From Pegea sp. RAD2-039 (lineage: Eukaryota > Chordata > Thaliacea > Salpida > Salpidae): a DNA stretch of 64,000 nucleotides. Shown piece by piece: positions 5,438 through 45,439 of this stretch. A program made the translations under genes and the position numbers. Below the pieces are notes generated by a model. That model was not told where the DNA came from. It saw only the letters and a program-made list of their open reading frames with translations, and did not search any database. The stretch is taken from contig JAQGEQ010000344.1 in assembly GCA_034620365.1 (NCBI GenBank), forward strand, positions 304,182-368,181. The letters run 5' to 3'. Each line of letters begins with the position of its first letter. Position 1 is the first letter of the stretch.

Positions 5438-7270
5438 ATGAAATTAATTAGAGGTAAAAGAGGTTTTTGTAAAATAAAGTCTGTATTAAAATACTTGCGA
5501 AAATTTTCTGTACTATTTATTCTACTCGCCTCAATATTTTGGTTTTTATCAACTTACTGGACAGAAAATGAAGAAGAAAAAAAATGGGAAAAGCTCATAG
5601 AAAACAATAACAAAAGTTGGAGAGAACAAATTTGTAGGTAGATTTTGTCAATTCTTACCACAAAAGTTGTTCTACGAAATTGTGTAGGGAATAAGGAACA
5701 ATGTAGAGATTTAAAAGTGATGCTTCAACCAAAAAATGAAAAAAAATTAAAATTCACGTCGAAGCCAGCTTCGAAAAACCCCATAATCTCTTTCATTCAT
5801 CAACCAGTAAACGTAATGCGAAGATTAGAAAGTTTAACTTGTGGCATCAATGCTGGTAAGTTTTCTTTCAATTTATAATTTCTTAATTCCATTTTTATTC
5901 CAGTTATTTAAGTTTAATTATTTGTAAGAAATGATTAACAGTAAATTTATAAGTAGCAACTAGTCTGATAGTTATCAGCTTTTTCAGTGACCTTATCTTC
6001 AAATTCCAGGATTTTGAGGGGAAAATAAATTAGATTTTTAAAAGTTGAGTAGAGAAAGGTTTTGTGTTGATACACTAAAAATCATTTCACAAAAATGTTG
6101 AATCAGATTTGATTAAAAATTAAAACTCAGAATATAAAAGAATAAATAGAAATGTTTACTAAAATCTATTTCAATTAAAAAACCCATTCAGGGTGATCAG
6201 CCAACAAACCAATTGCTTGTTATTGACGAAGCGTTTTCGTCGTGTTGTCATGACAACGCTGTGTTTGTTGATAGCGGAAAGTCCGGTGCTGACAATTGTA
6301 CACTTCATCAAAAGCGCGATTGACAACAAAGAACGACGAGAAGTGATTCGAAAGACTTGGGGCGGCGTGAAGGGTATTGGGGGCGCGTGTCGACATGAAG
6401 TAGTGTTTGTAATGGGGACCGGTGGTAAAGAGAAAGAGCGTTTGTTACGCGCGATTCAAATCGAAGAAGAAGCTCGTCACTATGGTGATTTGTTGCAAAT
6501 AAGTGAAGAAGACTCTTCTAAGTGAGTTGTGACGTAATGAAAGTGTCGATGACGTCATCACTTGTGATTGCAGAAACCTCGGAATAAAAGTAACTGCAAG
6601 TTTGCAGTGGGCTTCTAACTTTCTGCATCCTCATTGGCTGTTTACATCGTGCGACGATGACGTCATCATCAATCCATTCAACCTGGCCACTTACGTGCAT
6701 TTTATGAGTGTGACGTCATCAGTTGAAGAATCTAGGGCACGACCATGTTACGAACAATTGCCAATCGTCTGTTTCTATAGTTACAAGGAGCTAGATAAAC
6801 CTGTTCGTGATCCGACCAGTAAATGGTTTATTTCAAATCAATCTTATTCGGGTAAATACTGGCCAGCTTACTGTCGAGGTGGTCTTTATTTGATGCCCAC
6901 TTCATTGGCTGCTCGTTTATATCAAGTCTCTTCACAAGTATCTTTGATTCATCTCGATGATGTCCTTATAACTGGATTGATGAGAAAAAAGTTGGAAGAT
7001 GGAGCAACAAAGATCTTTGTATGTATCTTTGATGATCTGTTGAAAGTCTTCCTGATGAAGATCTTTATTTTGCAGCCTGCTCCTTATTCTCAGCGATCTG
7101 ATTTCCAACTTTACACACGACTCTTCGGAGGAGATGATCTCGAAAAAGTCTTTATTCGTCATCTGTGGGGAAATATCAAAAACCGGAAAGTTGATATTGA
7201 GCAAGAAATGATGAAAGGATGGGAACTGATCAGTAACGGAGAGATTTGGAAGTCTCAAGGATGTTACTAG
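5438..7270 (+). CDS. beta-1,3-galactosyltransferase family type II membrane protein
   Basis: Golgi glycosyltransferase of the GT31 (Galactosyl_T) family, expected to transfer galactose or N-acetylglucosamine from UDP-sugar in a beta-1,3 linkage. Exons as read: 5438-5633, 5688-5855, 6192-6521, 6574-7018 and 7076-7270. The start Met is followed by a basic stretch and a single hydrophobic anchor (VLFILLASIFWFLSTYW), which fits a type II Golgi protein. Family blocks follow in order: ERREVIRKTWGG, VVFVMGTGG, YGDLLQ, the metal-binding DxD motif as CDDDVIIN, and DDVLITGLMRKKL near the C-terminus. Intron 6522-6573 contains TGACGTCA. Intron 7019-7075 is 57 nt and stop-free, so retention would stay in frame. 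The odd point is the exon 2/3 join: the obvious GT-AG pair leaves the frame off by one, so the first two exons or that junction may be wrong. The best available poly(A) signal is AATAAA near 7358. The family call is firm; donor and acceptor sugars are unknown. Confidence 0.88.
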
Positions 7271-8542
7271 CATCTTCATCTTCACTCATTTCTTTCAACT
7301 TTTATTTCAATTTTTTTTGATTTTAGGAAATTTTCTTTTTAGATTTTCTACTTTTTCAAATAAAAACTTTTTACTTTTTGTTGTTTCGTTTTATTAGTTT
7401 TTTTTGTTCTTTTTTTTTTTTTGGATTAAATTTGCATTTTAACAACTTTACTTTCAAACAATTCAAATGATTCTGAAACGTTAATTGAAATGAGAGATTT
7501 ATAATATTGTTTTTGCTTTAATTCATCTGATATTTTTTCACTTTGAAATTATTTATTCATTTTTATCAAATTTATTTCTTTACTTGATATTTAAATTCGG
7601 CTAAAATTAAAATGAAAAATTTTTAAGGTTAATTTTTTTTGATCAAATAATTGAAATATTTTTGAATTTTTTTGATCTTCTTCTTTTATCATTCTTGAAT
7701 TTTATATTTATGGGTTAGTCGATCATATTCTCGTTGAAGAATAATCGAAAGTTGAAAAAACAAAAAGATTTTCACAAAATTTCTAATAAATTGAAAAACT
7801 TAGATATTTTATTTACAAGAATTTCTTCATTTAATTTATGATGAATTTTTAAATACTTTTTTAAGATATAAATTTGTTCAAATGAAATTCAAAACCAACA
7901 ATTAAAAAGCCAAATAAACTGATTTCTTTTTGGAATGAATTTCAATTTTACCAAACTAATCTTTTCTTGATTTACAAATTTTAAGTTGAATGAAAAAGGA
8001 TTGTTTAGCAATTGTGTTGTTAAATGCTTTTGCATCAGTTGTTGAATGTAAACAAATTTTAAAAATAGAATAATCATTTCACATATTGCCTTAAAAACAG
8101 TTTCAACATTTATTTATCTTTTTTTTTATAAAGTATTTTGATTCATTTTCATAACATTTGAATTTGCTAGAACCCTTTTCATATAACTTTTATTACTTGT
8201 TCCTATTTGCTGATTAAATGATAAAACAACTTTATGTAATATCCTGATTACTTGAATATATTGATTGATTTTTAACTAGGATACAAACTTGATAAAAACT
8301 ATTTAATATCTCTAATTTCTTTAATGTATTTAATTTCTTTTATGAGATTTTGCAGCAAGTAATTATTGTAAGAAAGTAATATCCAAATTGAATAGAAATT
8401 TCGTTTGGGATTACTATTAAGAAATTGAAAGTTTCAGCATTTCATTTTGCAGTTAGAACTAAAATTCAAATTAATATAAAAAGAAACAAAAAAAATAATT
8501 ATTTTTTGTAAATTCTTTGTTTGAAAACAATTCAAAATTTTG
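7271..8542. other. intergenic DNA
   Basis: Contains the 3' untranslated region of the galactosyltransferase (AATAAA near 7358), then AT-rich sequence with T-rich runs. I see no gene or structured element. Confidence 0.5.
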
Positions 8543-9706
8543 ATGAAAACTTCAAACTCTTCTAATAAATGGGGATTATTGGAATCCGTCAAAGATCGAG
8601 AAAATAAGTTTGAACTGGCGGGAATTATAAACTTCTTTTCCGGCAAAGATGGAATTTTAATTAGAGGTCCTCCAGATCAACTAATCTTCACTTTAACACC
8701 TCATCAAATTATTGTTCCTCAAAGTCGAGTGTTGATTCGCGTAGATGATGACGTCATCGAGAGCGAGGCGCAGATGATTGGTGATTCTTTATTAGAAGTT
8801 GATGGAATCGGGAAATTCTATTATTACGTCACAGCATTGGTGAAGATTCGAAGACCCCCGAAATTGCCCCGGAGGTACCAGTTGATCGAAGAAGTGGGTT
8901 TTGGGGCTTTTGGACGCGTCTTTAAAGCAATTCATCTCGGTGAAGCGCGTATTTGTGCGCTTAAAGTCGCGATTAAGAACTCACAGCTCCACAAAGAAGT
9001 TGAGATCACCAAAGAGTTTTCTTCATCTCCTTGTCTCGTCCGCTTTTTCCATTTCTTTAAAACTTCTGCTTATGACGTCATCGATATGGATTACTGCTCC
9101 GGTGGATGTCTTTCTCATTTAATCGCGTGTAATGACGTGATAGATGAGTTACAGATGAAAGTAATCTTCTTTCAGGTGCTCCAAGGACTTGATTCGCTTC
9201 ATCGACATCATATTGCGCATTGTGACGTCAGACCCGACAACATCCTTCTCTGCGATCTCACCACTAGGTGTCAGGTCAAACTTTGTGACTTCGGTGTCGC
9301 TTGTGACGTCACAAACGCGCGAACAGGATTTTTCGGTTCTTTTCCTTACTCCGCTCCTGAGATGATGAAGCAACATCCGAACATCGCGCGGTTAATGACG
9401 TCATACAAAGTCACGTGGGACGAAGGCGTCGATATTTGGAGTTGGGCGATTGCTGTTTACTACGCGATTTCGAAATCGCTGCCTTTTGGGTCACCACGTG
9501 ATTACCATGGTTACCATTCACGCGCTTCTCAGTTACATCATCCGATCTTTGATGATGTCAGCTGGTCATCACGCTCTCATGACGTCATTCAAACTATTGC
9601 ATCTGTGCTGCAAGTGTCAAGAAGTAAGAGGCCGACATGTAGCGAGCTGATGACGTCATCGTGGTTTGATGACGATTTCCAAAAAGCGTTTAGATATATT
9701 TGGTGA
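8543..9706 (+). CDS. FHA-like domain protein kinase (CHK2-like), HCD variant
   Basis: Single-exon gene of 387 residues. An in-frame TTG precedes the ATG chosen here. The N-terminal 110 residues align in pattern with the FHA-like region of the neighbouring gene at 10374, but lack a clear GR...SxxH core. The kinase domain starts near residue 118, with a complete glycine loop (VGFGAFGRV), the beta-3 lysine in ALKVAIK, the catalytic loop HCDVRPDN (residues 226-233), CDFG (DFG at 249-251), SAPEMM and DIWSW. The catalytic Asp, the Asn and the DFG Asp are all present, so activity is expected. The usual HRD arginine is a cysteine, which makes it a non-RD type unlikely to need activation-loop phosphorylation. 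By family knowledge, FHA-kinases of the CHK2/Rad53 type act in DNA-damage signalling; that role here is inference. Eight TGACGTCA copies lie inside the gene and its stop. Lack of introns suggests a retroposed origin. Confidence 0.85.
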   Translation: MKTSNSSNKWGLLESVKDRENKFELAGIINFFSGKDGILIRGPPDQLIFTLTPHQIIVPQSRVLIRVDDDVIESEAQMIGDSLLEVDGIGKFYYYVTALVKIRRPPKLPRRYQLIEEVGFGAFGRVFKAIHLGEARICALKVAIKNSQLHKEVEITKEFSSSPCLVRFFHFFKTSAYDVIDMDYCSGGCLSHLIACNDVIDELQMKVIFFQVLQGLDSLHRHHIAHCDVRPDNILLCDLTTRCQVKLCDFGVACDVTNARTGFFGSFPYSAPEMMKQHPNIARLMTSYKVTWDEGVDIWSWAIAVYYAISKSLPFGSPRDYHGYHSRASQLHHPIFDDVSWSSRSHDVIQTIASVLQVSRSKRPTCSELMTSSWFDDDFQKAFRYIW

Positions 9707-10373
9707 TGACGTCATCATACTGTTGAGGTGATTCATTTGCTGTAATTCGAATACATTTCAAAATAAAAAATCTTTCACAGAATAAAATAAAATTATAATA
9801 AACTGAATAAGTAAATACAAGAGTAAATACTGAAGAAATATTATTGTATAAAACAAATATGATAAAAATGTATTTGATGAAACCAAATGAGTTTAAAGAG
9901 TTTTGAAATTAAATTACTCAAAAAGAAATAAGTAACAATATATAAGCAGATGTGGGTTAAGTTTTTGATCAGAGTCAACTTTTTTCAATCGAATCTTGAT
10001 TAGAATCAGTTATTTTTAGAGTCGAATTTTGTTCAGCACAGAATTATTTTTATTTAAAACTGAATTATTTGAGTTTGCAAAGTTTTTAATTTATCTGTAA
10101 GCACTGTTTCATTTACTAAAAGAAGTTTTTCTTTCTTAAAAACTGTAAAAAGATTATTTCACGGAAGAATGATTATTCAATCATTTAGTTACTTGATTTA
10201 ATTAAAAAATCTTCAAATATGAAAATGAAATATATCTTCAGATCTTTAATGAGTTTAAAACCAGCTGAGTTAGAAACTACTTTCTGAAAGTTGTTATTTT
10301 GAGATATTTTTATTAATAATGAGATGATTCTATTTACAGATTTGATTAAAATATACTTTTACTCAGATTTGAA
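9707..10373. other. intergenic DNA between tandem kinase genes
   Basis: Begins with a TGATGACGTCATCA palindrome that starts in the stop codon of the upstream kinase. It then holds AATAAA-type signals and AT-rich DNA. It should contain the terminator of the first gene and the promoter of the second; no further element is recognisable. Confidence 0.5.
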
Positions 10374-11567
10374 ATGAGTTTTCCGTGGGGGGTTTTACAA
10401 AATGACGATACAACTTATAATTTGTACTTCAATTCCGAAGTCCACAAAGTTTATTACAATGAAGAGAAAGGACTAGAACTGAAATATCAAAATAATGACC
10501 TCAGCGAGTATCTTCATATATTCACTATAACACAACATGAAGAAGACAAGTTAATCTTTATACAATCAACCAATGACGAAGTGTTTGTGTATGTAGATGG
10601 AGAAAAGGTTGATGGATGCCGTTGTATACTTGGCGATCATTCAATTGAAGTTGGAAATTGGTTTTATGATCTTTTAACTGTTAATAATCAACATGGTTTG
10701 ACGTTCCCTGATTCAATCAATCAACTTTATGTCCCTATTAACCGTCTTAATTCACCCCAATCTTCAAGAGGAGTCTTTAAAGTCTTCAGCGTCCAATCTT
10801 TCCAAATCCGAGTTAACAAATTTGTAAAGAGCGCACAGAAAAAGTCGTCGAAAGCGCGAAATTTGGAGAAGCTTCGAAGAGAATATGAACTTCTTAAAAA
10901 GATCGAATCTCCCCACATCGTCAAAGTCTTCGATTTCGTCGTAGCTGATCGCGATGTTGCATTCATCAGTATGCAGTTTTGCAGCGCGCTAACTCTTGAG
11001 CATCAACTCCATATCCGTCATCAAGTGGAAGAGCGAGATGCCGTTGCTATGTTACATCAACTCCTCATCGCGCTTCAGCACCTTAATCACGTTGGTGTCA
11101 CTCATCGAAACATCTGCCCGCGTAACATCGCGTTTTCGCGTCGCACTTCTTTCCATCATCCAATCCTGATTGACTTCAGTCACGCTGATTCACGCGAATC
11201 GATGACAGGGTTCGTTGGAACTTTTGGATTTGCAGCTCCTGAAGTGATGTTACAACGCAAAGAATTACGTCAGAGTACCAATGACGTCACATACACGCGA
11301 AGCGTTGACTTGTACAGTGTCTTTGCTACAACCTTTAACACCTTCTATGCCGCATTGCCCTTCGGTGACGCGATTCATCGCGTACGTTACCTCCAAAACG
11401 CGCTTAGCTTCTATCTTCAAATCAGTGATGACGTCATGAACCGCGCGACTCCTGCCTTTCGGAAGTTGCTTGAATCTGTTCTTCTTGTACCCAGTGATCA
11501 ACGCCCTACAGCTGATTCGTTAAAAGAACAGATGGAAGCTGACTTCAAGACTTTGATGACGTCATAA
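10374..11567 (+). CDS. FHA-like domain pseudokinase, tandem paralogue
   Basis: Single-exon gene of 397 residues, same strand and architecture as the kinase at 8543. The N-terminal part has an FHA-like strand pattern (VFVYVDGEKVDG followed by LGDHSIEVGNWF, about residues 68-100). The kinase fold is recognisable (HIVKVFDFV, ALQHLNHVGVTH, AAPEVM, SVDLYSV, SDQRPTADSL), but the key residues are broken. The glycine-rich loop is absent. HRD is HRN (residues 244-246), so the catalytic base is lost, and DFG is DFS (267-269). Known pseudokinases often regulate a related active kinase, so pairing with the neighbour is a reasonable inference and nothing more. The gene ends inside the palindrome: ATG ACG TCA TAA encodes the last residues and the stop. 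The intact long frame argues against a decaying pseudogene. Confidence 0.85.
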   Translation: MSFPWGVLQNDDTTYNLYFNSEVHKVYYNEEKGLELKYQNNDLSEYLHIFTITQHEEDKLIFIQSTNDEVFVYVDGEKVDGCRCILGDHSIEVGNWFYDLLTVNNQHGLTFPDSINQLYVPINRLNSPQSSRGVFKVFSVQSFQIRVNKFVKSAQKKSSKARNLEKLRREYELLKKIESPHIVKVFDFVVADRDVAFISMQFCSALTLEHQLHIRHQVEERDAVAMLHQLLIALQHLNHVGVTHRNICPRNIAFSRRTSFHHPILIDFSHADSRESMTGFVGTFGFAAPEVMLQRKELRQSTNDVTYTRSVDLYSVFATTFNTFYAALPFGDAIHRVRYLQNALSFYLQISDDVMNRATPAFRKLLESVLLVPSDQRPTADSLKEQMEADFKTLMTS

Positions 11568-11749
11568 TATCGACGTCTAGTTTTTTCTTTTTTTCTTCTG
11601 AGCTTTTATTTTCGAAATTTTCCTCTTTTTGATCATTTTAATTCTTTTAGCACAAATTGAAAATATTTTTTAATGAAAAATAAAAAAGTTGGTTAAAATT
11701 TTTAAAATAATTTTATTAGGGGTAGTTAGTCAAAACTTTAGAAATAGTT
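11568..11749. other. 3' flank of pseudokinase gene
   Basis: T-rich DNA with an AATAAA near 11676 that could serve the pseudokinase transcript. No other feature. Confidence 0.4.
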
Positions 11750-12770
11750 AGAATGTAGAAATTCTACTGAATGGTACTTTCCAATCTTTTAGTGAACATG
11801 TTTTTATGATTTTAATATTCTCAATTTTAAGTTTCCACAATTCTGACTTATCCTTTCCATAAAAATTTACTTTTTGAATATCAATTCGGGTTCCGTTCTC
11901 CAAGATCCTCAAGTGATCAGCTTGGCTCCACCAGTGATTATGCTCAAACTTAAAAAAATTATGCTTCAGCAAACAAACTATCTACTATATCATCAATACA
12001 GGCATTTGCAAAGCTTTTGATTCACTTTCACATCCCATTTTAGTAAAAACTCTCGGTAAAACTCACCTAACCCTTTTTAAGTTTCCAGTAGTTCTTCATA
12101 TATATGGATGATTGTTATTTAACATTGAATCGTTTTAGAAATATCATGTTCTTTTCCAACGACGCCAAACTTTTTAGTACGAAATTAGTTGCTCTTCAAT
12201 CTTCTTTAGGGTCTACTAACTTATGGCTTCAAGCTAAACAACTCAACCTTGCAACCGACAACCAATAAACAAACTTTCAAAGTTTAATCCAACATCATCT
12301 GACTTTTATCTAAAAAACAGTTTCCCAAAATCAAGTCATCAAAAACTTGTAATTATTCATCTGTCATGATTTCAAATAAACTGACCGCGTAAACTATTTG
12401 TTCAGATCTGATTTACCTACTTCATACCAAACTCATCAAAAAAGTTTTGACACTGTTAAAATTTATCACTAAATACATCCGCCTTAAATTAGTTCTTTTC
12501 CGTAAAGTTTTCTCACCTTAAAAAAGATAATATAAAACTTGAATGTGTACAATCACTAGTAGATACTAGAAAAACTTTCCCCAGCTCAATATTAAGGCTT
12601 TGAAATATTGACGCCTTTTTTCTGACCTTATCTGATGATCCCTTCGTCCTAAAAGACTCTTCATTCAAAATGAGTCAAAAGGGTCATCACAACATGAGAT
12701 TCTCCTTAGGATTGCATCACTAAATCGAAATTGGTCACTTAACAGAAATTATTTAGAAAATATGATTTAA
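11750..12770 (+). pseudogene. decayed non-LTR retrotransposon reverse transcriptase
   Basis: Translation in shifting frames gives the order of landmarks of a LINE-type reverse transcriptase. There is a VPQGSVLGP-like stretch around 11885-11910 and a degraded catalytic box FFSNDAKLFS (canonical FADDTKLF) near 12146-12178. LQSSLGSTNLWLQAKQLNL follows, as in the region after the catalytic Asp pair. Downstream pieces near 12540-12740 resemble the family's C-terminal part. Stops and frameshifts are numerous and one catalytic Asp codon is changed, so it is dead. No poly(A) tail or target-site duplication was identified. The clade (CR1, RTE or Jockey-like) cannot be told by eye. Confidence 0.6.
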
Positions 12771-13536: not shown

Positions 13537-15105
13537 ATGGGAAACAAAACTTGTTGTCCGAAATCTGATGATGATCATTTAGTAAGATTTATTTTTGTTA
13601 GTTTTATAGACGTTTCTTTTCCCAATACATGTGCCTGTACCTTTATTATTCTTTTTGTGTTGTATTTTTTTAATATTCAACGTAAACGTACAAATCAAAA
13701 ATATTAATTAATTGCGACAACTTTCAAGTTTTCTTTTTAAATTTTATTATGATTTATCATAATTTAGAAACTATAAAGTTGACTAAATTTGAAAATATTA
13801 TTTTGTTATTTTTAATAATATTAAATGAATTTTAGATAAATGAAAGAAATTTATATTTCTAAAAATTTTAAATATGAATACTAAGTATTTGTTTCTGTAT
13901 ATTTAAAAATCATATTTTAAAAAAACTTTATTTTATCTTTAAATTTTTAGTCCTTAATAAGTTATTTTTATTTTACTTCATTTTGATTATAAATTTATCA
14001 AATTTCTTGTGATATATAAATTATAATTTATTATTTGCTGATTAGAATTAAATTATATTTTTACAACAAAGAAATTTATTTTTAATCTTTTTTTGAATTT
14101 TCTTTTTTAACAATTTTGTTTTAAAATAAAAAAATTCAGATAGAAAATTATTAAAGTGAAATTTGCCCATATTTTTTTGTCTAGACCATTTGTCAAATTA
14201 TGATTTCAAATATGGTCATATTTTCATCATTTTCATAATTAAATGGAAAGTAATATCTTAAGATGATTGTGTCTGTCATAGTGATCTTGTCATTGGGTTA
14301 CTATATTCAAGTTGACAGTCAAATAATTCAATTACAGTTTAATAACCAACTTCACATTTTTTATCATTTAAATTTCAATTATAGAGAAGATAAATTAACA
14401 AAATTGACTTTATTGATTATTTTAACCAATTTCAATTATTATTCAATCATAATATTTGAAGCCAAAATGTTTAAAGGTCAATTTTGTACTTTTTAGGATG
14501 AACGCTCACCTCTACTAGGAGGAGATAAAACTGATGCAGTGACTACAATTCAGCCTAACCTGTTAATCCGACCAGTAGAATGTCCCGACGACTCCCTGAT
14601 CTCTGAACCTCAACCTCAATCAGAGCAATCTCAACTTGGATGCATCGTCAATAATCTAGACAAGTAAAAGAACCCAATTTCAAACTTCCATTCTCATTTG
14701 CATATTTGTAGAAAAGTCATCGACATCTCAGCGTCCGAAACGATGAGGATCAGTTCTTCTGAATACATGGATCGAGTCGCACTATACAAGTTTGTATCTC
14801 GATGTGACGTCATCGGTTGTTAATGATCGCTGGTTGTCTTAGAGAAAAGTTGAGTAATCTTCCAGTATTATCTGATTTAGAAGAGTCTTTGCTTCCATCT
14901 GCATCTGATGATCCTGTTGGTGTCCTTTCACAACCTCTCATGCCTTATTCAGAAATTCTACAAGTTGGTAATTAGATATCGCGCGCTGATGACGTCATAT
15001 TGCTGTTTTCAGGTGCAGCAAATGTCTCAACAAATTGTAGATGCTTACAACGAGATTCAAATTAAATCGGATAAACCTCTTTTTATTTCGATTGCTGAAA
15101 AATGA
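13537..15105 (+). CDS. LAMTOR1: LAMTOR1 (p18), Ragulator subunit
   Basis: Lipid-anchored scaffold of the Ragulator complex, which holds Rag GTPases and mTORC1 on the lysosome. Five exons: 13537-13581, 14497-14663, 14712-14789, 14843-14963 and 15013-15105. Their phases agree and give 167 residues, against about 161 in vertebrates. The N-terminus MGNKTCCPK has the Gly2 needed for myristoylation and the adjacent Cys pair for palmitoylation. A second block, ERSPLL, resembles the family's dileucine-like lysosomal signal. The core shows VIDISA and SEYMDRVALY, matching the conserved NIIDVSA...EYMDRA segment, and the C-terminal helix includes QQMSQQIVDAYNEI. Two splice donors are unusual GTTTGT and GTTGGT, chosen because only they keep frame. 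Introns 14790-14842 and 14964-15012 each contain TGACGTCA. Intron 1 (915 nt) is AT-rich and featureless. The last codons overlap an antisense gene. Confidence 0.9.
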
Positions 15106-19160: not shown

Positions 19161-19240
19161 TGCAAATAAAATGACGTCAGTCGATTACGTCACATCCACC
19201 AATCGATAAGCAAAACAGCCATCATCCTTGGAAACCAATA
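19161..19240. promoter_or_regulatory. CRE/CCAAT cluster, possible promoter
   Basis: A GC-richer patch in AT-rich DNA holds TGACGTCA (19172-19179), TTACGTCA (19186-19193), a CCAAT at about 19199 and a second CCAAT-like ACCAAT near 19230. This is the usual composition of a CREB/ATF plus NF-Y promoter. It lies 2.2 kb upstream of the syntaxin-1 start codon with no other plus-strand gene between, so it may drive syntaxin-1 through an unseen 5' non-coding exon. That link is inference. Confidence 0.4.
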
Positions 19241-19890
19241 ATTTAGGATGTAGTTGTTTACTAGTTGAAATATTTTGTTGATTGATCAAAAACTAATCCC
19301 TCAAATAAGGAAATAGAAGTTGAAATAGTCTCAAGATAGGAGATGAAATCGTGAATATATTTGCTTAGAAATCTTTTTTGTTACATTTCATCGAATAAAT
19401 TATTCAGCAGAAAAATGTTTAGCTGTGGGCTTTATAGGAAAAAATTCAATAAAACTTTTCCACGTCTAATGTTACTCGCTAACATATCATCCAACTTTTT
19501 ACTTTTATTTCGAGCAATCGCTACCTGTACCTTTGCTTCAATTGTTATTGGTCAAGTTAATCATTAATTTCACCTCTAAATTTGATTAATAAATTGCTTT
19601 AAATCAAATAGTTGAAATGAAATTAGTTATTTTTGTGTTTGCACATCATACGTTGAAAATGATTTCAACCCAACAATTGAGCATTGAATATTCGAAGGTG
19701 AACAGATAGCAACTGTTGTCAATATGTTAGTTGGCTTTTTATCGAATTTCTCGTTTGCTGCTGGTGGTGGTGGTCTATTCAGCTAACAGCTTGCTTCATT
19801 GTCAATTTTGTATCAAAATCACTTCGTTTCTGATTCGACTTTTGTTAGTTAAGCCACATTATTAGCATAAATATCGACTTAAACGATTAG
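19241..19890. other. unassigned DNA before minisatellite
   Basis: Moderately AT-rich sequence with one plus-strand open stretch of about 60 codons from 19361 that lacks a family signature or convincing start. It could be 5' leader of the next gene. No firm feature. Confidence 0.35.
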
Positions 19891-20542
19891 ATGTTGATGA
19901 TCGAATGTTGATGATCGGATGTTGATGATCGGATGTTGATGATCGGATGTTGATGATCAGATGTTGATGATCGGATGTTGATGATCGGATGTTGATGATC
20001 GGATGTTGATGATCGGATGTTGATGATCGGATGTTGATGATCGGATGTTGATGATCGGATGTTGATGATCGGATGTTGATGATCGGATGTTGATGATCGG
20101 ATGTTGATGATCGGATGTTGATGATCGGATGTTGATGATCAGATGTTGATGATCGGATGTTGATGATCGGATGTTGATGATCGGATGTTGATGATCGGAT
20201 GTTGATGATCGGATGTTGATGATCGGATGTTGATGATCGGATGTTGATGATCAGATGTTGATGATCAGATGTTGATGATCGGATGTTGATGATCAGATGT
20301 TATGATCGGATGTTGATGATCGGATGTTGATGATCGGATGTTGATGATCGGATGTTAATGATCAGATGTTGATGATCGGATGTTGATGATCAGATGTTGA
20401 TGATCGGATGTTGATGATCAGATGTTGATGATCAGATGTTGATGATCGGATGTTGATGATCGGATGTTGATGATCAGATGTTGATGATCGGATGTTGATG
20501 ATCGGATGTTGATGATCAGATGTTGATGATCAGATGTTGATT
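19891..20542. repeat. 14-nt minisatellite (GATCGGATGTTGAT)n, upstream copy
   Basis: About 47 head-to-tail copies of a 14-nt unit, GATCGGATGTTGAT. The main variant has A for the first G after GATC, giving GATCAGAT. One unit lacks a base near 20300. The same unit forms a larger array inside syntaxin-1 intron 3. Confidence 0.97.
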
Positions 20543-20550
20543 AAGCGGCC

Positions 20551-21426: not shown

Positions 21427-27134
<5,708 letters not shown>

Positions 27135-27137
27135 TCT

Positions 27138-27569
27138 TCATCTTAGAAGATCCAATCCTGTTTCATGTTCAACGTTGTCATCGTCGATATTATTTCTTGT
27201 TTTTCTACAAAATCCATAATTTTTTCTGCTGCCGCTTTCTTTATCTACTATTTTTGATTTTTTTTGCTTTTTGATCGAAGCCTCTTGTCTTTGCAATCGT
27301 TCGCTCTCTCTGTTGTAATCACGACATGATGACGTCACTGATGACGTCATTTGTCGCATGTCATTTCTGTTGTATTTGTTGTAATGAAGTTACAAAAAGT
27401 TGTTGTGATTTTGAAGTAGATACTTTAATGACGCGATTGAATCTTCCAGAAGCGAATATGTATGATCATTTGTTGCGTCATCTTCGCTGTTGTTCTTACC
27501 GGAATTCTACTTGGAACTATCAAGAAGTGATGACGTCACTACTTCCGGAATGTCTTCCTCTCGGAGCAT
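27138..27569 (-). CDS. small coiled-coil protein, unidentified
   Basis: Minus-strand gene read as three exons: 27569-27543, 27506-27394 and 27309-27138, giving 103 residues in consistent phase. The protein starts MLREEDIPE. It continues with YSLLEDSIASLKYLLQNHNN and a charged helix SERLQRQEASIKKQKKSK, then ends GLDLLR. I do not recognise a family. The second intron (27310-27393) holds two TGACGTCA copies. The first intron would be only 36 nt, shorter than others here, so the start is less certain than the rest. The stop codon is 3 nt from the syntaxin-1 stop on the other strand, so the two transcripts must overlap. Confidence 0.5.
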
Positions 27570-27658
27570 GTCGGAACAACTTCTATTTATTCCACCTCAA
27601 TTTGAGCATGTCTCTTTTTTTGTTGATGTTTAATGTTTCTTTCGCACGATTCTTCTAC

Positions 27659-29281: not shown

Positions 29282-29638
29282 TGACGTCATATAGAAGATT
29301 TGATGACGTCACATCACATTGAAAGAGCCCTGTGCATGTTTGCAATGTTAGAAATTTGAAAAGTTGAAGTTTTTTAAGCAAATAAGCTTTTAATTAGGAT
29401 TTAATGAATGAAACTGATGACGTCACGTAACCATGACAACATATAAATGATTAGAAATCATAATAGAAATATGTAAAAGAACTTAATGTAGATAACATGA
29501 TGACGTCATAAATCGTGTTTTTGAATCGCGGTTTAATTGGTCACGTGCACATTTTCGAGTACTTCCGTTTGTCTATTTAGTTTTGAGGCAATTTCTTACT
29601 GACGTCAAATATGAAATTATACATATTATGTGACGTCA
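29282..29638. promoter_or_regulatory. cluster of six TGACGTCA palindromes
   Basis: Six TGACGTCA sites lie within 357 nt (first 29282-29289, last 29631-29638), four of them as TGATGACGTCA. One CACGTG-containing GTCACGTGCAC lies near 29540. No gene is adjacent within 1 kb that I can define, so target and direction are unknown. It could be an enhancer, a promoter of an unrecognised gene, or only a dense patch of the genome-wide palindrome. Confidence 0.45.
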
Positions 29639-32197: not shown

Positions 32198-32320
32198 TGA
32201 CGTCATCACGGATGCAAATGTTTACACTAGACAATTCGGCTGCCGCAATGTGGTGAAGAATTGTGTACGTAACAAATAGACGAAGAAGAAGACACAAAGA
32301 TGTCATGGTCGGGTAATTAG
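32198..32320 (+). promoter_or_regulatory. CRE plus octamer, possible promoter and first exon
   Basis: TGACGTCA (32198-32205) is followed 6 nt later by the octamer ATGCAAAT (32212-32219). About 95 nt further on is an ATG reading MSWSG before GGTAATT, which could be a short first exon with a donor. A downstream partner exon was not identified beyond the large minisatellite, so this is only a candidate. Confidence 0.25.
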
Positions 32321-32684: not shown

Positions 32685-35279
32685 CAACATCTCATCAACC
32701 ACCAACAACCATCTCATCAACCATCAACAACCATCTCATCAACCATCAACAACCATCTTATCAACCAGCAACAACCATCTCATCAACCATCAACAACCAT
32801 CTCATCAACCAGCAACAACCATCTCATCAACCATCAACAACCATCTCATCAACCAGCAACAACCATCTCATCAACCATCAACAACCATCTCATCAACCAG
32901 CAACAACCATCTCATCAACCAGCAACAACCATCTCATCAACCATCAACAACCATCTCATCAACCATCAACAACCATCTCATCAACCAGCAACAACCATCT
33001 TATCGACCAGCAACAACCATCTCATCAACCACCAACAACTATCTCACCAACTAGCAACAACCATCTCATAACCGGCAACAACCATCTCATCAACCATCAA
33101 CAACCATCTAATCAACCACCAACAACCATCTCATCAACCATCAACAACCATCTCATCAACCAGCAACAGCCATCAACAACCATCTCATCAACCATCAACA
33201 ACCATCCTATCGACCAGCAACAACCATCTCATAACCAGCAACAACTATCTCACCAACCAGCAACAACCATTTCATCAACCAGCAACAACCATCTCATAAC
33301 CATCAACAACCATCTCATCAACCATCAACAACCATCTCATCAACCACCAACAACTATCTCACCAACCAGCAACAACCATCTCATAACCAGCAACAACCAT
33401 CTTATCAACCATCAACAACCATTTCATCAACTATCAACAACCATCTCATCAACCAGCAACAACCATCTCATCAACCATCATCAACCATCTCATCAACCAT
33501 CAACAACCATCTCATCAACCAGCAACAACCATCTCATCAACCATCAACAACCATCTCATCAACCATCAACAACCATCTCATCAACCAGCAACAACTATCT
33601 CATCAACCAGCAACAACCATTTCATCAACCAGCAACAACCATCTCATCAACCAGCAACAACCATCTCATCAACCAGCAACAACCATCTCATCAACCAGCA
33701 ACAACCATCTCATCAACCAGCAACAACCATCTCATCAACCATCAACAACCATCTCATCAGCCAGCAACAACTATCTCATCAACCAGCAACAACTATCTCA
33801 TCAACCAGCAACAACCATTTCATCAACCAGCAACAACCATTTCATCAACCAGCAACAACCATCTCATCAACCAGCAACAACCATCTCATCAACCAGCAAC
33901 AACCATCTCATCAACCAGCAACAACCATCTCATCAACCAGCAACAACCATCTCATCAACCATCAACAACCATCTCATCAGCCAGCAACAACTATCTCATC
34001 AACCAGCAACAACCATTTCATCAACCAGCAACAACCATCTCATCAACCAGCAACAACCATCTCATCAACCAGCAACAACCATCTCATCAACCATCAACAA
34101 CCATCTCATCAACCAGCAACAACCATCTCATCAACCATCAACAACCATCTCATCAACCAGCAACAACCATCTCATCAACCAGCAACAACCATCTCATCAA
34201 CCAGCAACAACCATCTTATCGACCAGCAACAACCATCTCATCAACCAGCAACAACCATCTCATCAACCAGCAACAACCATTTCATCAACCACCAACAACC
34301 ATCTCATCAACCATCAACAACCATCTCATCAACCAGGAACAACCATTTCATCAACCAGCAACAACCATCTCATCAACCAGCAACAACCATCTCATCAACC
34401 ATCAACAACCATCTTATCGACCAGCAACAACCATCTCATAACCAGCAACAACTATCTCACCAACCACCAACAACTATCTCACCAACCACCAACAACCATT
34501 TCATCAACCAGCAACAACCATCTCATCAACCAGCAACAACCATCTCATCAACCACCAACAACTATCTCACCAACCACCAACAACCATCTCATAACCAGCA
34601 ACAACCATCTCATCAACCATCAACAACCATTTCATCAACCATCAACAACCATCTCATCAACCAGCAACAACCATCTCATCAACCATCATCAACCATCTCA
34701 TCAACCATCAACAACCATCTCATCAACCAGCAACAACCATCTCATCAACCATCAACAACCATCTCATCAACCAGCAACAACCATCTCATCAACCAGCAAC
34801 AACCATCTCATCAACCATCAACAACCATCTCATCAACCATCAACAACCATCTCATCAACCATCAACAACTATCTCATCAACCAGCAACAACCATCTCATT
34901 AACCAGCAACAACCATCTCATCAACCAGCAACAACCATCTCATAAACCACCAACAACCATCTCATCAACCAGCAACAACCATCTCATCAACCATCAACAA
35001 CCATCTCATCAACCATCAACAACCATCTCATCAACCAGCAACAACCATCTCATCAACCAGCAACAACCATCTCATCAACCACCAACAACCATCTCATCAA
35101 CCATCAACAACCATCTCATCAACCAGCAACAACCATCTCATCAACCAGCAACAACCATCTCATCAACCATCAACAACCATCTCATCAACCATCAACAACC
35201 ATCTCATCAACCATCAACAACTATCTCATCAACCATCAACAACCATCTCATCAACCAGCAACAACCATCTCATCAACCA
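32685..35279. repeat. 22-nt minisatellite (CATCTCATCAACCAGCAACAAC)n
   Basis: About 118 copies of a 22-nt unit, CATCTCATCAACCAGCAACAAC. The common alternative has CAT for CAG in the middle, and rarer units have CAC, TTATCG or ACTATCTCACC. Runs of the CAG type are interspersed with CAT types, and longer blocks recur, so the array probably grew by unequal exchange of multi-unit blocks. Confidence 0.97.
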
Positions 35280-36000
35280 ACTTGCAGTGGTGTTAGCGAT
35301 GGAGCTTTCTTTTATCACACTTGGCTGGTTTTGATAAGGTCTTCGACCTCTTGACCGATGAAGACAAACTTCTTTGCTTCATTTAGAAGAAAGTATGCGC
35401 GCAATGAAGCTTAACAAGGGCTGATTGTCGTAATCAACAAACTGCTTCGCCCCTGTCCCACTAGTGACGTCACATTTCGATTACATGTACCGGGGAATTC
35501 CCTAAAATGCAAGTGGTTGTAAATACAAAGCAATATTGGGCTTTGCTTTTGTTGTTGTTTGTTTTTCGCTTCAAATGATCACAGGAAAGGGGGAAGTACC
35601 ATGATTGACGCACTAATGCCTTCCCTAATCGAATTAGTGAAGCGTAAAGTGTCCAAAACAAACAGTAATCAGCCTTCATTACAAGATCATCAGCAGATTG
35701 GTGGTTGGCGGTGCATGCAGCTGTGCAAGCCACTCATAATTTATCACTGATATTGTCGGGGCTTTCCCAACACTGAAACCAACTTGCTGTTAACTTTAAG
35801 TATAAAACCACTCATGTAAACCATTGATGACGTCACTGATCTTTTCTTGTGGGTTTGAACTTACTTAGCGACGATGTGATGACGTCACAGCTGCCAGCGG
35901 CTCACGATTTTTTGAATACATTCTGAAATGGTTTGAAGTTAGAATTGAACTTTATTGAGTGAGTTGTCATAACAACGGAAGATATCGAGTAACATTGCTC
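35280..36000. other. GC-richer patch, unassigned, with three TGACGTCA sites
   Basis: The sequence is distinctly less AT-rich than its surroundings up to about 35750. One plus-strand stretch directly after the minisatellite (from about 35296) reads SHLAGFDKVFDLLTDEDK before a TAG. The minus strand is open for about 85 codons at 35733-35470. Neither can be assigned. TGACGTCA occurs near 35464, 35827 and 35880. A gene is possible but not demonstrated. Confidence 0.3.
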
Positions 36001-38103: not shown

Positions 38104-38222
38104 TGACGTCACTTTCCGACGATTCAAATGAAGTTGAGAAGAACTGAATAATGGCGCTTTTACTTCGATTATCAATCATAGCGTTGTCATAGAAACAAAT
38201 GATGTTAGCTGATATGACGTCA
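38104..38222. promoter_or_regulatory. paired TGACGTCA sites upstream of the LRR receptor
   Basis: TGACGTCA at 38104-38111 and 38215-38222, in a GC-richer patch about 0.8 kb upstream of the LRR receptor start. It may be a bidirectional CRE promoter shared with the minus-strand hypothetical gene. A role is inferred from position only, since the same motif also occurs in exons and introns here. Confidence 0.35.
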
Positions 38223-38995: not shown

Positions 38996-41866
38996 ATGAG
39001 AATTTATATTTTTATTGCTGTTCTCTTCTATCTGGTATTTTACGTGAAGACGTGTCCTTCTGGATGTAACACTTGTACAAGTCGCGAAATTTGGTGTGGA
39101 AACGCACACCTTAAACAATTTCCATCTAATATCCCAGCTAACATCAGTTTGTTGTATATGGTCGGCAACTCAATCTCAGCTATTCCAGATGAAGCCATGT
39201 TCAGTTTTCGTAAGGTAAGTGGATTTGGCGCGTAAAAAACTCTCTCTTTTTCGATAAGTACTTTCAAGTACCTCAAAACTGAACGCTTTCATTTACTTGA
39301 CGGTATTGAAAGTCCGTTTTTCAATCTAATGTGTTCACTCACAAACCAAATTGAATAATCACTACAAGCATGTCTCGTAACAGCAGCAAGTCTACCCCCC
39401 CAAATCCGTGCAAACCTCATTTGCGCAGATAATTGCAAAAGAAAACATGAAGAGAAACTGATGAAATTGTCTGACTCTGTACACTAGAGGTCGTTGTAAC
39501 AACAGACTTTTTGTTTAGACTTTGAAGACCTGGTATATGTTCAAAAACCAACTGAAATATGAAGGAATCGGCAAACAGGGATTCCGTCAATTAATCTTCC
39601 TTCAATCTCTCGACTTAAGTTGGAACTTTTTCACTAGCATCAGAGCTGATATGTTCGCAGGTATGATGACGTCATCATTCAATGAATTGTTGATGACGTC
39701 ACTTCTTTGATAGGAATGAGAACGCTACGTGAACTGTACATGAAGAATAATCGAATTTCTCGAATCTATCCTGAAGCATTTGCAAATATGACAAGTCTTC
39801 GTGATCTACAACTAACTGGAAACAGAATTGTTTCTGTTCCGCTGTTAACTGGAATTCCAGCTCTTTTACGTCTGTATTTGGATAATAATGAAATCAAAAC
39901 AATTGGTTACAGCTTTATCAAGTTACCACATCTCTCAGAGTTATCAGTCAGTCACACTGATGACGTCATCAATCGATTAACACTCGGTGATTACAGGTTG
40001 CAGGGAATCGTCTTCAAAAGCTAGAAGCAGACGCTTTCGCGGAACAGAGCGAAATTTCGTGGCTTAATGTTAGTAACAACCTCTTTAAAGTGTCTCCGTC
40101 AGCTATCAGGTAAGATACATCACATCGCCGTTCCGCATCACTAATTTTCGACTTCCAGCAACTTCAGTCAGCTCCGAGGACTCTATTTGAGTGGAAATCC
40201 GATTTCACGTCTTCCTGCTGATCTCTTAGCAAATGCAAATCCTATCAAAGTTCTCGATATCAGCGCGATGCAGCTGACGTCATTGGAAAGCGGATTTCTG
40301 CCACGTGGTCGTATTCTCAACACTATTCGAATCGGGGAAAACCCCTGGACATGTGATTGTCATTTGCGTCATCTTCTCGACTTTATTACGTGAGTGATGA
40401 CGTCATCATCACGTTCAACTTCATCGAGCTGTTTTTGTAGCGAGTTGAAAGACTCTTTTAATGACCTCTCGGAGGCAAAATGCGCCCGACCCCCTTCAAA
40501 GCGAGGATTGCTCCTCAAAGATCTTCAGCTTTCAGATCTTGGATGCAAGGAGACGTACGTTTTCCTGATTCTCATTCTCATCTTAATCTCCATCTTTTAC
40601 AGAGAGCAATCTGAATCCAAGAACGAAGATCCTTGCTCCTTAGTCACGTGCTTGAACGGAGGATTTTGTGTCATCGATGGGATTACAGCGAGCTGTAAAT
40701 GCGCCACTGGGTGGCGTGGAAGAACTTGTAGCGATCGAATCATGATTAACTCAATTACGTCACCAACAAATCAATCAGAAGATGAAGATCTTCAAGACAC
40801 ACTTTTATTAGAAAAAGATTCGATCACAGTTGACAGTGTGACTATCCAAGTGCCCCAGCTGGGGGCTGAGTATCTCATTCGTGTCCTTGAGTTAACTGAT
40901 GATCGCGGAGGACTTCTCGAACGTCAAAGTTATCACATTCGACCAATTAAACGCAATCAGCGTGTCTCAGGACTTGCTTCAGGTGCTACTTACAAAGTCT
41001 GTCTCGTATCGCTACTTGCTCCTTCTGATAAGCTTTGTAGCACGATCCAAACTTCGATTCAATCAACTACGTCATCAGTTGTCGTGGAAACATTCACTCA
41101 ACAAAAAATAGTAGTTGATGAGAAAGATGGTGGATCTGATACAGAAGAAGATCGGGAAAAAACGCAGATTTTTGCCGGAGTTGGAGCTGCTTCACGCGGC
41201 GAACCTTCCAATTTTCTCGATCATCACAATCAATCAGTTTATCTGTTAGTCGGGGCAGGAATTGGTGCCCTTGTGATACTTGTATCAGGCGCCTTAATCT
41301 TTCTCTTCCTCCGTAATAAAAAGAAGAAGATTGCCTCTTCTAAGCTTCAACAGATGTCGCCTCTCGAGAAGCGATTACGTCACCCGTCACCATCTCGGTT
41401 TCCTGCTCATTATCCAAATGGGTCTTTAGGTCGAAGTAGCATTTCAGGGGGCAGTACAGTTGGTCACGTGACCAGCCAACCTTTGTTGCTACTAGAACGT
41501 TCCTCGCCCCTCAACCTCGCCCCTGCGCCCAACAATGACGTCACAGATGAGTATGTTGCCATGGCAGGAAAAGGGCAGCAAACTTCTATGTCCAGGTCTG
41601 TCTATTTTTACGGTCCTACACATCCAAATGAGATGTCAGGTCGGAGTCACACCCCTATTTGTCCCCCTGACCCCTACCGTACGTCACCACTTGTAACGTC
41701 GCGAATTAACGGCTCATACGCGACTACTATGACGTCACTGGTGGCTGGAGGGGGCGCGGAAACGAAACCGCTTCGTCAAAGTCTTCTCACCAAATCGTCG
41801 ATTACGTCATGCACTATTCCGGAGTGCTACTCGAGAAACGCGATGACGTCATCAGTAGTGGAGTGA
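38996..41866 (+). CDS. vasorin-like LRR/EGF/FNIII single-pass receptor
   Basis: Type I membrane protein of 771 residues. Seven exons: 38996-39214, 39519-39660, 39714-39946, 39997-40109, 40159-40389, 40441-40554 and 40603-41866; all phases agree. Domains in order: signal peptide (MRIYIFIAVLFYLVFYVKT), Cys-rich LRRNT cap (CPSGCNTC), about eight leucine-rich repeats with repeats such as LRDLQLTGNRI and LRGLYLSGNPI, LRRCT cap (NPWTCDCHLRHLL), an EGF module (CSLVTCLNGGFCVIDG...CATGWRGRTC), an FNIII-like region, one membrane helix near residues 563-586 and a tail of about 185 residues. Vertebrate vasorin has this same order and binds TGF-beta; ligand binding here is not shown. Introns 39661-39713 (two copies), 39947-39996 and 40390-40440 contain TGACGTCA. 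Intron 40555-40602 is 48 nt, stop-free and hydrophobic when translated, so it can be mistaken for a membrane helix. Confidence 0.88.
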
Positions 41867-41914
41867 AGACTTTCAAAATTGTGATTTAATAATCAAAGCT
41901 AAGTAACAAGTTGA

Positions 41915-41997
41915 TGACGTCATCATTTCTGAGATGATTTGATGAGTTGTGACGTCATCACAAGCTGCAAGCAGTGTACGTGTCACCAATGACGTCA
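41915..41997. promoter_or_regulatory. three TGACGTCA palindromes between convergent genes
   Basis: Three sites within 83 nt, starting 49 nt after the LRR receptor stop. The next gene to the right ends here too (it is on the minus strand), so this is not a promoter position for either neighbour. Confidence 0.4.
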
Positions 41998-42624
41998 TCA
42001 CTTCTCACTGTTTTTCGTTTTTTGAATATTCGAGAAATTTCGAACTTTTCATTTGTTTCAAATTGAATTGTGAAAAAAAATTTGCAAAAATGTTTTGGAA
42101 ACACTGCCTACAAGGCTGATTGAAATTGATTTTAGTAAATATTTCAGACTATTAAGAAATGTCAATTCTGATTTATTTCAAAATTACTTTTTACTATTTA
42201 TTGATAAATTTTAGTTTTTGGCGAAATTTTTTCCCTAATTTCAACAAAAACTGAATTTGAATGTAATCTTGAATTTGTTCGCTACTAATATTTCTATTTC
42301 ATTAAAAAAATATCTAATTTTATTGTTATAATAAAAGCAAGCTTGAAAAGCAGCCTAGCTAGAATTCAAATAGTTTTTAATTAAAAGTGTTTAAGATAAA
42401 CTTTTATGAAATAAAACAAATGCAAGTTCAACAACAATTTTTTATTAAACTGCTAGATGGCGATACAGAGTAGTTTAATCTGTTTGACTAACTAAAAATA
42501 AACTGAACAATTTTTAGCTTTTATAACTCACTAGAAAACTAAAACAAAACAAGAAAAGCTATTTGTTGTTGAGATAAAGTTTCGCGAAGATCTACAAATT
42601 AGACAGCTTCTTGTACTTAACTTT
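41998..42624. other. convergent intergenic DNA
   Basis: AT-rich DNA between the 3' ends of the LRR receptor and the minus-strand SLC5 gene. It should hold both poly(A) sites. No other feature. Confidence 0.45.
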
Positions 42625-45439
42625 TCAAAAGTTAATACAATTTTCATTTTCATCCTGGTTCATAATTACTCTTATTGGCTGCATCATCATCGGTTCTTCA
42701 ATTTCTGGTACACCAAGACGAAAAAACTTGTTGAATGAAGGTGGTAGAAATGAGAAGTAAATTAGAGGTAGAAACAGTTTCGGATCTAGATCTTTTGGCT
42801 TTGTTGCTCCTACAAAGTATTAAATTATCAACTACATCATCAACTAAGTAACAAACCTGTGAGAAAAGAAACAGTTATTCCAACCACGAGTACTACAACC
42901 AATGTAAAGGCGACGTACAAAAATGGAGAGGTATAGTAGAACATTTGTAGATTAGTTGGTTCGAAAGAAGGAAGTGTAAATAGTGTTTGGTTTGGCTTGA
43001 TTGTGCAATTAGACATTGGCAAAGGAAGTACTCCTTGTCTGTGTAATGAAGCTGGGTTAGATAACGCACCGGCACCCATCCAAACTGCTAGTACAGTTGC
43101 AACAATATGGCCAGATAAAGCGCCCTGCAATAATGTGTCATGGACTTTGTGTGTGAAGTCACTGGTCACCTTAGTATTAGCCCAAGGTACAAAGATTCCA
43201 AGAGTGAATAGCCCAAGTAATGGACCAGCTACAATTCCTGAAATTTGCATGAATGCAACTAAGAAGGTCTGGCCGAGATTTTGAAAGATGAAAGCAAATC
43301 CGGTTGTAAAAACCCCGGAAATAAAAACTGTTGAAGATAAATAGATGAAAAGATGAAGATGAAATTGAAGCATCTTTACCAACTGTCTTACTCCACCAAA
43401 GATATTCTCTTTCAGTAATTTCAGGTTTGAGAACTTTAGTGAAATCTTCCATGAGCATCACACTTACGGAGTTGAGTCCTGATGACATTGAGCTGAAACA
43501 ACATTCGATGATTGATGTAGATCAGTTTGAAAGTAGAGACCTCAATGCTCCGCTGTACAGGGCACTTAGATAAAGTCCTGAAAGTCCAATGTGGTCACTA
43601 AATAGTTGAACCATTGTGTAAGGAAAGACTTGATCTTGGCGTTGTATCTTCCCAGTAAATAAGAGATCACAATCTTGATATAAGGCGAGCATGATTGCTC
43701 CAATAAAGATGGATGTTAGCATGATTACTACAGTTGGCAAAGTAGAGAATAAATTAGCTCTGAAATAAAAGATTTGTTAGTTGGGATAGAAATAAATTAA
43801 TAATTATTATTTGTTGAAACTAAAATGAAAAAGAAATTAGTTTGTTGTAATATTGTTAGTGCTTCGATATCGGAATAATGACTGATGATGCAAATACCAA
43901 AGAGGGTGTAAGGATTCGTCACAAACATGCTCTAAGCTAGACATATCAATAACGACAAGTGATTATTCATAATCTTCTACTTGTTTTTCAGAAGATAAGG
44001 AAGCTGCCAAGTAACTTAGCTTCACAGATATACATCGAAAAGTTAAAGAGACTTTCACGAAAAGTCATCTTAGACCAACAAAGATAGAAGATAAGAAATA
44101 TTTACATCTTATGATATGAATATATATTTTTAATATTATATATACTACTAATATTACTGATATATAATAAATATAATGACCATAATTAAATAAAGTTTAG
44201 AGTAAACTGTTCTTTTAGAAATTAAACTTTTTGATTTTTAATTATTACAAGGACTTTTGTAAGTTGCAAATATACTTGTTACAAATTCTGATGTTTCATC
44301 ATCAATATTTTAATGAAGAAACCTTACATCCGGGCAGTTTTCGTGTTTCTACATGACAAAAATCTCTGAGACATCGATTGGTTAGCACAGGAAGCTCCAC
44401 TCATACTAACTGCAGTTCCAAATCCAATTGAGAACGCGGTGAAAGAGTAAGAAGGATCTGCATTAAAACTGAAACAAGTTGTGAATGAGAATATGCAAAT
44501 TTATCGCAACTTACTTATTGAAGTTAAATCGATTCAGGTTCTTTACAGCATCATACACTTCTCCTATACCACCAACTTTTGAAACACCAATTACGCAAAT
44601 AAGAACTTGTCCCAAAAGCATAACAACTGATTGAAACGCGTCTGTCCATACCACAGCTTCGATGCCTCCCTGTCATGGTCGTCAACAGACTCTGAGTGAT
44701 GACGTCATAAAGACGACTTACAAATGCTGTGTAGGTTGTACAGATGACTCCTGTTGCCATCATAACTGATTCTATTGGTAGTGGAGTTACCGCGTTTAGC
44801 GCTAATGACGGGACGTAGATATTGATACTCATGAAAAGGATCTGCGGTTGAAAAGATGACGTCATTGAAGCGACAACGAGACTTACCATGTTGATGATGC
44901 AAAAGAATGATGCAACTCGCCGCACGGTGGGGTTGTAGCGAAGCTGAAAATACTGAAAAAGAGATTAAATGAATAGAAGATGAGGATTTGATGAACCTTA
45001 TTAATTGAATTCAACTTCAATTGTCGGAAAAGTGGTATGTAGTAGCAATGAGCTACAAGTTTTGAGATTACTGTTCCAACTACAAACCAGCAGGTCACGG
45101 TCCCGAAGAAATACATTTGAGTTGAAAGTCCAATTACTGTGTAAGCGCTGACAAATGTGAGTGAGATGGAGAGTCCAATTGGAATCTAAGAAGAGTTTTA
45201 AGAAAAGTATATGAAGTTGGAAGTTTGTTACTTACTGGGTGAAAGTTCCCTGAACCAAAGAAGTAATTGTAGGTGTTCCCTTTACGACCTTTCCAAGCAT
45301 GGTAAACACCAAAAAGCACAGTTAGAAGCAGAACCGCTGCACAAAGAGCAAATAAAATATCAAATAGAAACTGATACTGAAAATACAAACCTCCAAAGAC
45401 AATATAATCTCCCAGACTGATGTAACTTGCATTTAACAT
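42625..45439 (-). CDS. SLC5-family sodium-solute symporter A
   Basis: Multi-pass plasma-membrane transporter that uses the sodium gradient to import a solute; closest in feel to the SLC5A5/A6/A8 (iodide, multivitamin, monocarboxylate) branch. Eleven exons on the minus strand: 45439-45236, 45185-44997, 44952-44887, 44841-44722, 44669-44515, 44468-44328, 43759-43541, 43492-43380, 43327-43170, 43124-42857 and 42809-42625; phases close to give 605 residues. Signatures include LGDYIVFGG, GLSISLTFVSAYTVIG, GGIEAVVWTDAFQ, SSGLNSVSVMLMEDF and GPLLGLFTLGIFVPWAN. Introns 44842-44886 and 44670-44721 contain TGACGTCA. Intron 43169-43125 is 45 nt, in frame and stop-free. The gene is divergent from symporter B with matching exon lengths, so they arose by duplication. 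The substrate is unknown. Confidence 0.92.

Follow-up and report, generated by a model that had tools for sequence, protein, structure and literature searches.

Iterated short palindromes have been described in cyanobacteria, where the density of highly iterated palindrome (HIP) sites comes near one per kb and their one-base deviations fall at the first and last positions (available text of PMC4390886). In animals, the closest described systems involve the cyclic AMP response element (CRE), whose octamer TGACGTCA can be blocked for binding by CpG methylation and whose copies in Ciona, in the portion of PMC1796609 at hand, show no bias toward transcription starts. Moreover, the Ciona motif TRTGACGTCA is found ten times in one enhancer region of 1.8 kb, and it spans a site required for the activity of the Cnot11 enhancer (PMC11001920, in the part consulted). 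Here we analyse a stretch of 64,000 nucleotides (hereafter the window; contig JAQGEQ010000344.1, positions 304,182 to 368,181) from the salp Pegea sp. RAD2-039, in which exact copies of TGACGTCA recur within genes and between them. The trait is real, genome-wide and similar to CRE/basic leucine zipper (bZIP) sites, and the Ciona findings suggest that it may be wider in tunicates.

Number, exactness and flanks of the palindrome

The window holds 46 exact copies of TGACGTCA between positions 6550 and 44864, where 0.63 would be expected under a first-order and 0.39 under a second-order Markov model. Among the 256 eight-base palindromes of the window, this octamer ranks first by observed/(expected + 0.5). 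A preliminary description, made from the letters alone, had counted about 46 copies over this same range and put the chance expectation well below one copy, and both statements are borne out; its estimate of a composition near 72% AT was too high, the measured content being 69.4%. The window forms the end of contig C132 in an assembly of 105.7 Mb and 387 contigs (L-numbers below denote stretches fetched from this assembly and C-numbers its contigs). A search of the whole assembly returned 27,792 copies, corresponding to a mean density of 0.26 per kb, versus 969 for ACTGCAGT, the same palindrome with its letters reversed, a type of control used for all genome-wide counts. The preliminary description had proposed such a count for every eight-base palindrome; carried out in part, for TGACGTCA and later for a second palindrome, GTCACGTGAC, it came out, for TGACGTCA, far above both Markov and reversed-letter expectation, and not near the Markov value that had been named as the outcome fatal to the claim. 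Statistics other than pattern counts derive from about 270 kb that include the window and were partly picked for motif richness.

The excess extends beyond the octamer. The 14-mer TGATGACGTCATCA has 1,972 copies in the assembly versus none for its reversed form, and base composition alone would produce only about 9-10 from 27,792 octamers, meaning that the flanks are non-random too. The earlier remark that many copies reach the 14-mer therefore holds genome-wide, but was generous for the window, where six of the 46 do so. In 198 sites (396 flanks), position -1 is occupied by A in 70% of cases, G in 24%, C in 5% and T in 1%, with G at -2 in 49% and T at -3 in 64%, giving the extended consensus TG[A/G]TGACGTCA[T/C]CA. 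These flanks match the optimum of AP-1/ATF-type bZIP dimers, which, as judged from sequence, favours recognition by a bZIP protein; the table of PMC9164029, in the part available, gives GATGACGTCATCA for FOS, ATGACGTCAT for FOSL1::JUN and TGACGTCA for CREB. The genome contains at least 12 bZIP matches, and among the ten that were fetched translation indicates putative CREB-like (L037), JUN-like (L036), FOS/ATF3-like (L039), C/EBP-like (L041) and XBP1-like (L045) types.

Near-miss octamers were compared between 81 kb of motif-rich and 125 kb of motif-poor DNA, both assembled by motif content, with L001-L004, L010, L011 and L013 having been fetched in known clusters. The exact octamer counts, 190 for 1.2-2.3 expected in the former and 1 for 0.6 expected in the latter, reflect that choice, and the comparison serves for the neighbour classes only. 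In the motif-rich DNA the 12 single-mismatch classes sum to 69 (30-44 expected), and a clear excess over background among single-base neighbours is seen only for TTACGTCA, with one half-site base changed (18 versus 2.7-3.9), which assembly-wide numbers 5,160 versus 2,795 reversed. Two other classes show a milder excess (TGAAGTCA, 17 versus 6.4-9.6; TGATGTCA, 15 versus 5.7-8.1), while the remaining nine together reach 19 for about 15-22 expected.

Patches, CpG content and copies in genes

The palindrome had been said to saturate the gene-bearing part of the window. The copies there are indeed many, but they are clumped, in patches of about 2-4 kb within which the flanks of the copies are unlike. 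Ten stretches of 10 kb were taken without regard to the motif (L006-L009, L012, L014-L018), three of them on the contig of the window and three on C1, a contig for which the list of 14-mers was already known; seven of the ten hold no copy and the others 1, 14 and 16. Stretches picked within known clusters carry 32 (L010), 19 (L011) and 36 (L013) copies, and the 10 kb adjoining the window (L005) carry 25. On C1, a neighbour closer than 500 bp accompanies 45 of the first 100 sites, where a Poisson distribution predicts 6.2, and close pairs with starts 10-40 bp apart number 5,606 genome-wide, as opposed to none for the control and about 226 if the sites were uniformly placed. In L010, 30 copies lie within positions 103-2603, part of a putative IBTK-like gene, and none in its exons at 3050-4344. 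In L013, a putative adenylyl-cyclase-like gene (name and gene model from translation) has copies not only in many introns but also in several exons and in the 3' flank. On C1, where 58 close pairs were listed, 10 show a spacing of exactly 20 bp with unlike spacers (under uniformity, the largest class has P 0.0005); as only 1 of 21 close pairs from stretches off C1 has it, this preferred spacing is kept as a lead.

CpG content climbs with the density of sites. In 449 bins of 500 bp (372, 28, 17 and 32 with 0, 1, 2 and 3 or more sites, respectively), the CpG observed/expected ratio, calculated after removal of the motif, takes values of 0.62, 0.90, 0.98 and 1.12, and GC content values of 0.281, 0.330, 0.368 and 0.384. 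The 32 densest bins are thus CpG-island-like, which the 372 empty ones are not. The difference is kept in all four GC classes (at GC 0.40-0.50, 0.44 in 22 bins versus 1.13 in 25), the Spearman coefficient is 0.48 over 284 bins, and a site is present in 33 of the 48 CpG-high bins and in 12 of the 137 CpG-low ones. The other CpG-centred palindrome, GTCACGTGAC, is also iterated genome-wide (814 versus 9 reversed), and its core, GTCACGTG, occurs 14 times in motif-rich DNA for 0.9-1.4 expected. From its letters, GTCACGTGAC looks like a USF site, the USF2 entry in the available table of PMC9164029 being GGTCACGTGACC. A tandem array bearing CACGTGAC is located at 23744-23861 of the window.

Coding sequence is not spared. 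Seventeen window sites fall within four stop-to-stop open reading frames (ORFs), encoding two kinases, one galactosyltransferase and one EGF protein. Pfam-matched coding stretches account for 10 of the 46 sites, the two kinases holding 6 and 2 of these and the galactosyltransferase the other 2. The distribution is consequently not promoter-only, though there may be a weaker bias to transcription starts. This agrees with the earlier view that these are not ordinary CREB/ATF promoter sites, since copies are present in coding exons and 3' flanks, and the pattern named there as the contrary outcome, enrichment only at transcription starts, is not seen. The site at 9223 falls on the catalytic loop of a kinase, which reads HCDVRPDN where RAD53 has HRDLKPDN. 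Coding sites are read as xDVx or xTSx, with both open frames in use; as the third frame contains a TGA stop, its avoidance follows by construction and carries no weight as evidence.

Gene copies add a comparative view. In the galactosyltransferase family, for which 16 matches were found and 10 paralogous loci fetched, sites are present in the aligned coding part of three loci (L026, L027 and L032) and absent from seven (L028-L031 and L033-L035), two of the latter being only partly aligned. DDDV or DDVI codons are common to the carriers, and their other sites are at differing residues or frames. L026 and L027, both on contig C23, look near-identical over one tract and diverged beside it, as after gene conversion, and are for this reason not independent; in the diverged part, motif copies are found in L026 only. 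Window positions 5724-7373, which contain the galactosyltransferase-like gene, have a recent inverted copy at G000:C132:294006-294740 that differs by six substitutions and one gap, its left edge being placed where nine mismatches crowd. One of the six substitutions makes site 6550 read TGACATCA, a pair compatible with either direction of change. The same holds for window 27280-27592, whose 71% identical copy on contig C122 lacks all three sites of that segment (27330-27538).

Candidate explanations

The best reading of these data, to which we give about an even chance, is that the clusters are bZIP-bound, unmethylated patches with homotypic site arrays at an unusual scale. A bZIP protein of the AP-1/ATF/CREB group would bind TGACGTCA and its extended form in CpG-rich patches and, once bound, would hold patches of a few kilobases open and unmethylated. 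Being unmethylated, the patches would remain CpG-rich, and selection on binding, rather than drive, would maintain the exact copies, with no difference between exons, gene ends and likely introns.

A number of observations weigh against this proposal. Exact copies exceed surplus one-off copies by about 5- to 7.5-fold, whereas regulatory arrays usually contain many weaker sites, and coding exons, even a catalytic loop, hold sites with no obvious regulatory need. The bZIP set, with its matches of 12 or more, looks ordinary and shows no obvious expansion, and the spacing of sites lacks helical phasing at periods of 9.5-11 or 9-12. The TpG/CpA ratio stays at 1.15-1.21 across motif classes and, except in the highest GC class (1.36 without and 1.15 with the motif), is not clearly lower in motif bins, so that the data give no clean sign of methylated CpG having decayed, and the rise in GC from 0.28 to 0.38 goes beyond what loss of methylation alone would give, although gene content may explain it. 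Motif-poor DNA also has an excess of TGAGGTCA (8 versus 2), meaning that single neighbour classes can stray, and a raised count of GTCACGTG (2 versus 0.3-0.4). Finally, in the Ciona work, as far as the available text of PMC11001920 goes, TRTGACGTCA falls beyond the minimal enhancers outside Cnot11, and a CREB-type site proved dispensable in one notochord enhancer.

Exactness and indifference to coding sequence sit badly with plain regulation, and both are better fitted by a conversion-like drive, the main rival. The bound palindrome would be favoured as donor, or would suppress breakage, in meiotic recombination or repair, and copies would spread through recombining patches whatever sequence they overlie. 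In its full form this would be a self-spreading, HIP-like drive in an animal, with bZIP-bound TGACGTCA winning meiotic conversion or repair and overwriting introns, untranslated regions and tolerant codons. Exon, likely intron and 3' flank are treated alike, the patches have a hotspot-like size, GC and CpG both climb with motif density, and different galactosyltransferase copies have several of their sites at codons that are not homologous, which looks like independent gain. Besides, the M26 recombination hotspot of fission yeast is a CRE-like sequence, ATGACGT, to which Atf1-Pcr1, a pair of bZIP proteins, binds. However, the extended TGA/TCA consensus is not GC-rich, so the process cannot be plain GC bias, and known hotspot motifs tend toward loss, not gain, by conversion. 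On balance we consider such a drive unlikely, in its general as in its self-spreading form, without being far-fetched.

The two next explanations are each very improbable. A HIP1-like ratchet of methylation and mismatch repair, creating and retaining the palindrome, would account for a short and exact palindrome in strong excess that is present in coding DNA. Yet HIP sites lie near one per kb and those described here are clumped; moreover, end-base deviations number 6 for 3.9-5.7 expected, and it is the second base (TTACGTCA, 18) that stands out. Selection at the level of RNA or protein, for splicing signals or for favoured DV or MTS peptides, fares no better: many sites in L013 are near the splice sites of its putative gene model, but copies past the gene end in that model are equally exact, and coding copies use both open frames. 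Least probable of all is spread within a mobile element or tandem repeat, because although the motif does occur in local tandem units (for example of 20 bp at L013:6342-6410 and of 36 bp at L010:251-331), which explain the alike flanks of 19 of the 211 pairs less than 160 bp apart, flanks are unlike in the other 192 and no consensus beyond 3 bp is clear in the 46 window sites or in the 198, a result that also leaves unsupported the transposition or target footprint suggested in the preliminary description.

If bZIP proteins do open thousands of patches, as in the proposal favoured here, the genome would constitute a natural test bed for how the number and exactness of sites set chromatin state. 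If drive were the true cause, the force would be sequence-specific and would extend even to an enzyme's catalytic loop, in an animal that is likely closely related to vertebrates. In both cases, tunicate enhancer studies that take repeated TGACGTCA as gene-specific would need a genome-wide background.

Window features and known systems

The window sites, all entered without strand, are distributed as follows. Three are at 6550-6718, the one at 6550 in a putative intron of about 50 bp and those at 6658 and 6711 in a galactosyltransferase-like coding exon, where site 6658 covers DDDV codons read as a putative DxD motif. Eight follow at 8749-9714, seven of them in a 393-codon protein-kinase ORF (8525-9703) and six within its Pkinase match, and three at 11282-11564, in another protein-kinase ORF (10350-11564) at its 3' end, two of them within the Pkinase match. 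Exact octamer counts are two at 14805-14997, one at 19172-19179, one, a full 14-mer, at 23424-23431, six at 29282-29638, one at 32198-32205, three at 35465-35887 and two at 38104-38222. Three more sites (39667-39968) lie in and around a leucine-rich-repeat exon. Two are at 40275-40405, one of them (40398), perhaps intronic, falling where the stop-to-stop ORF 40394-41863 begins, and six at 41536-41997, three of them (41536, 41730 and 41844) in this ORF, which encodes an EGF domain. The last two exact octamers are at 44700-44864. A membrane-protein-like ORF, used as query in a protein search, gave no matches.

The window also contains large minisatellites (19890-20541, 21911-23196, 24958-26929 and 32688-35279) with units GATGTTGATGATCG, TGGTTGCTAATAACTGGTTGCTAGTGAT and CATCTCATCAACCAGCAACAAC, one of the arrays being built from GTTGCTA words. 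A 13-bp tandem array, ACAGGGATGGTAC, occupies 63775-64000, and the contig ends inside it, which is perhaps why the assembly breaks there. A fluorescence in situ hybridization probe of the nematode Caenorhabditis auriculariae, apparently directed at a satellite, contains TGACGTCATCA according to the accessible part of PMC13370393, probably by coincidence.

Elsewhere in the genome, a Pfam match to alternative oxidase in L006, under the cut-off and in a repeat-like ORF, was dropped. The search for cuticle collagen gave no match in this genome, a negative that is weak alone as no control genome gave a match either. A single marginal GH6 match scored 27.5 bits against a Pfam cut-off of 27.0; among animals GH6 is, to our knowledge, a tunicate trait. 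There are 71 homeodomain matches, and the 20 examined by translation include two putative posterior-Hox-like homeodomains that share a contig at a distance of 22 kb (L049 and L050), as well as Cdx-like and Xlox-like ones elsewhere. In the tunicate Corella, Hox12 and Hox13 are on a single scaffold (PMC7337526, in the portion consulted). From sequence, the homeodomains and the marginal GH6 match thus indicate a likely tunicate and not a nematode, and for a glass sponge or a placozoan the literature searched gave no support.

In the literature searched, subscription journals being mostly outside its reach, no report of genome-wide iteration of TGACGTCA was found, and its place among known systems has to be sought by likeness. 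With HIP1 of cyanobacteria, to which it had been compared at the outset, it shares a short exact palindrome, a huge excess and entry into coding exons. Close kinship does not stand: the sites described here, at 0.26 per kb, are clumped and not near-evenly spread at about one per kb, their deviations do not fall at the end bases, and they are embedded in an extended, protein-like 14-bp consensus. TGACGTCA is not a HIP1 member, as it differs in spread and in deviation pattern. The M26/CRE hotspots of fission yeast have the same core bound by a bZIP pair; we know of no iteration of M26/CRE on the present scale. The Ciona notochord enhancer motif TRTGACGTCA has the same core, with ten occurrences in a single 1.8-kb region, and differs in being reported for few enhancers, with no genome-wide iteration stated in the text available (PMC11001920). 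Vertebrate CpG-island CREs likewise place a CpG-centred octamer in CpG-rich DNA, whereas the sites described here extend across gene bodies and into 3' flanks. Homotypic clusters of CRE/ATF/AP-1 sites are alike in gathering many copies of the site of one factor within a few kb, with flanks at the bZIP optimum; the salp genome differs from them in carrying 27,792 perfect octamers, coding exons included, accompanied by few degenerate sites.

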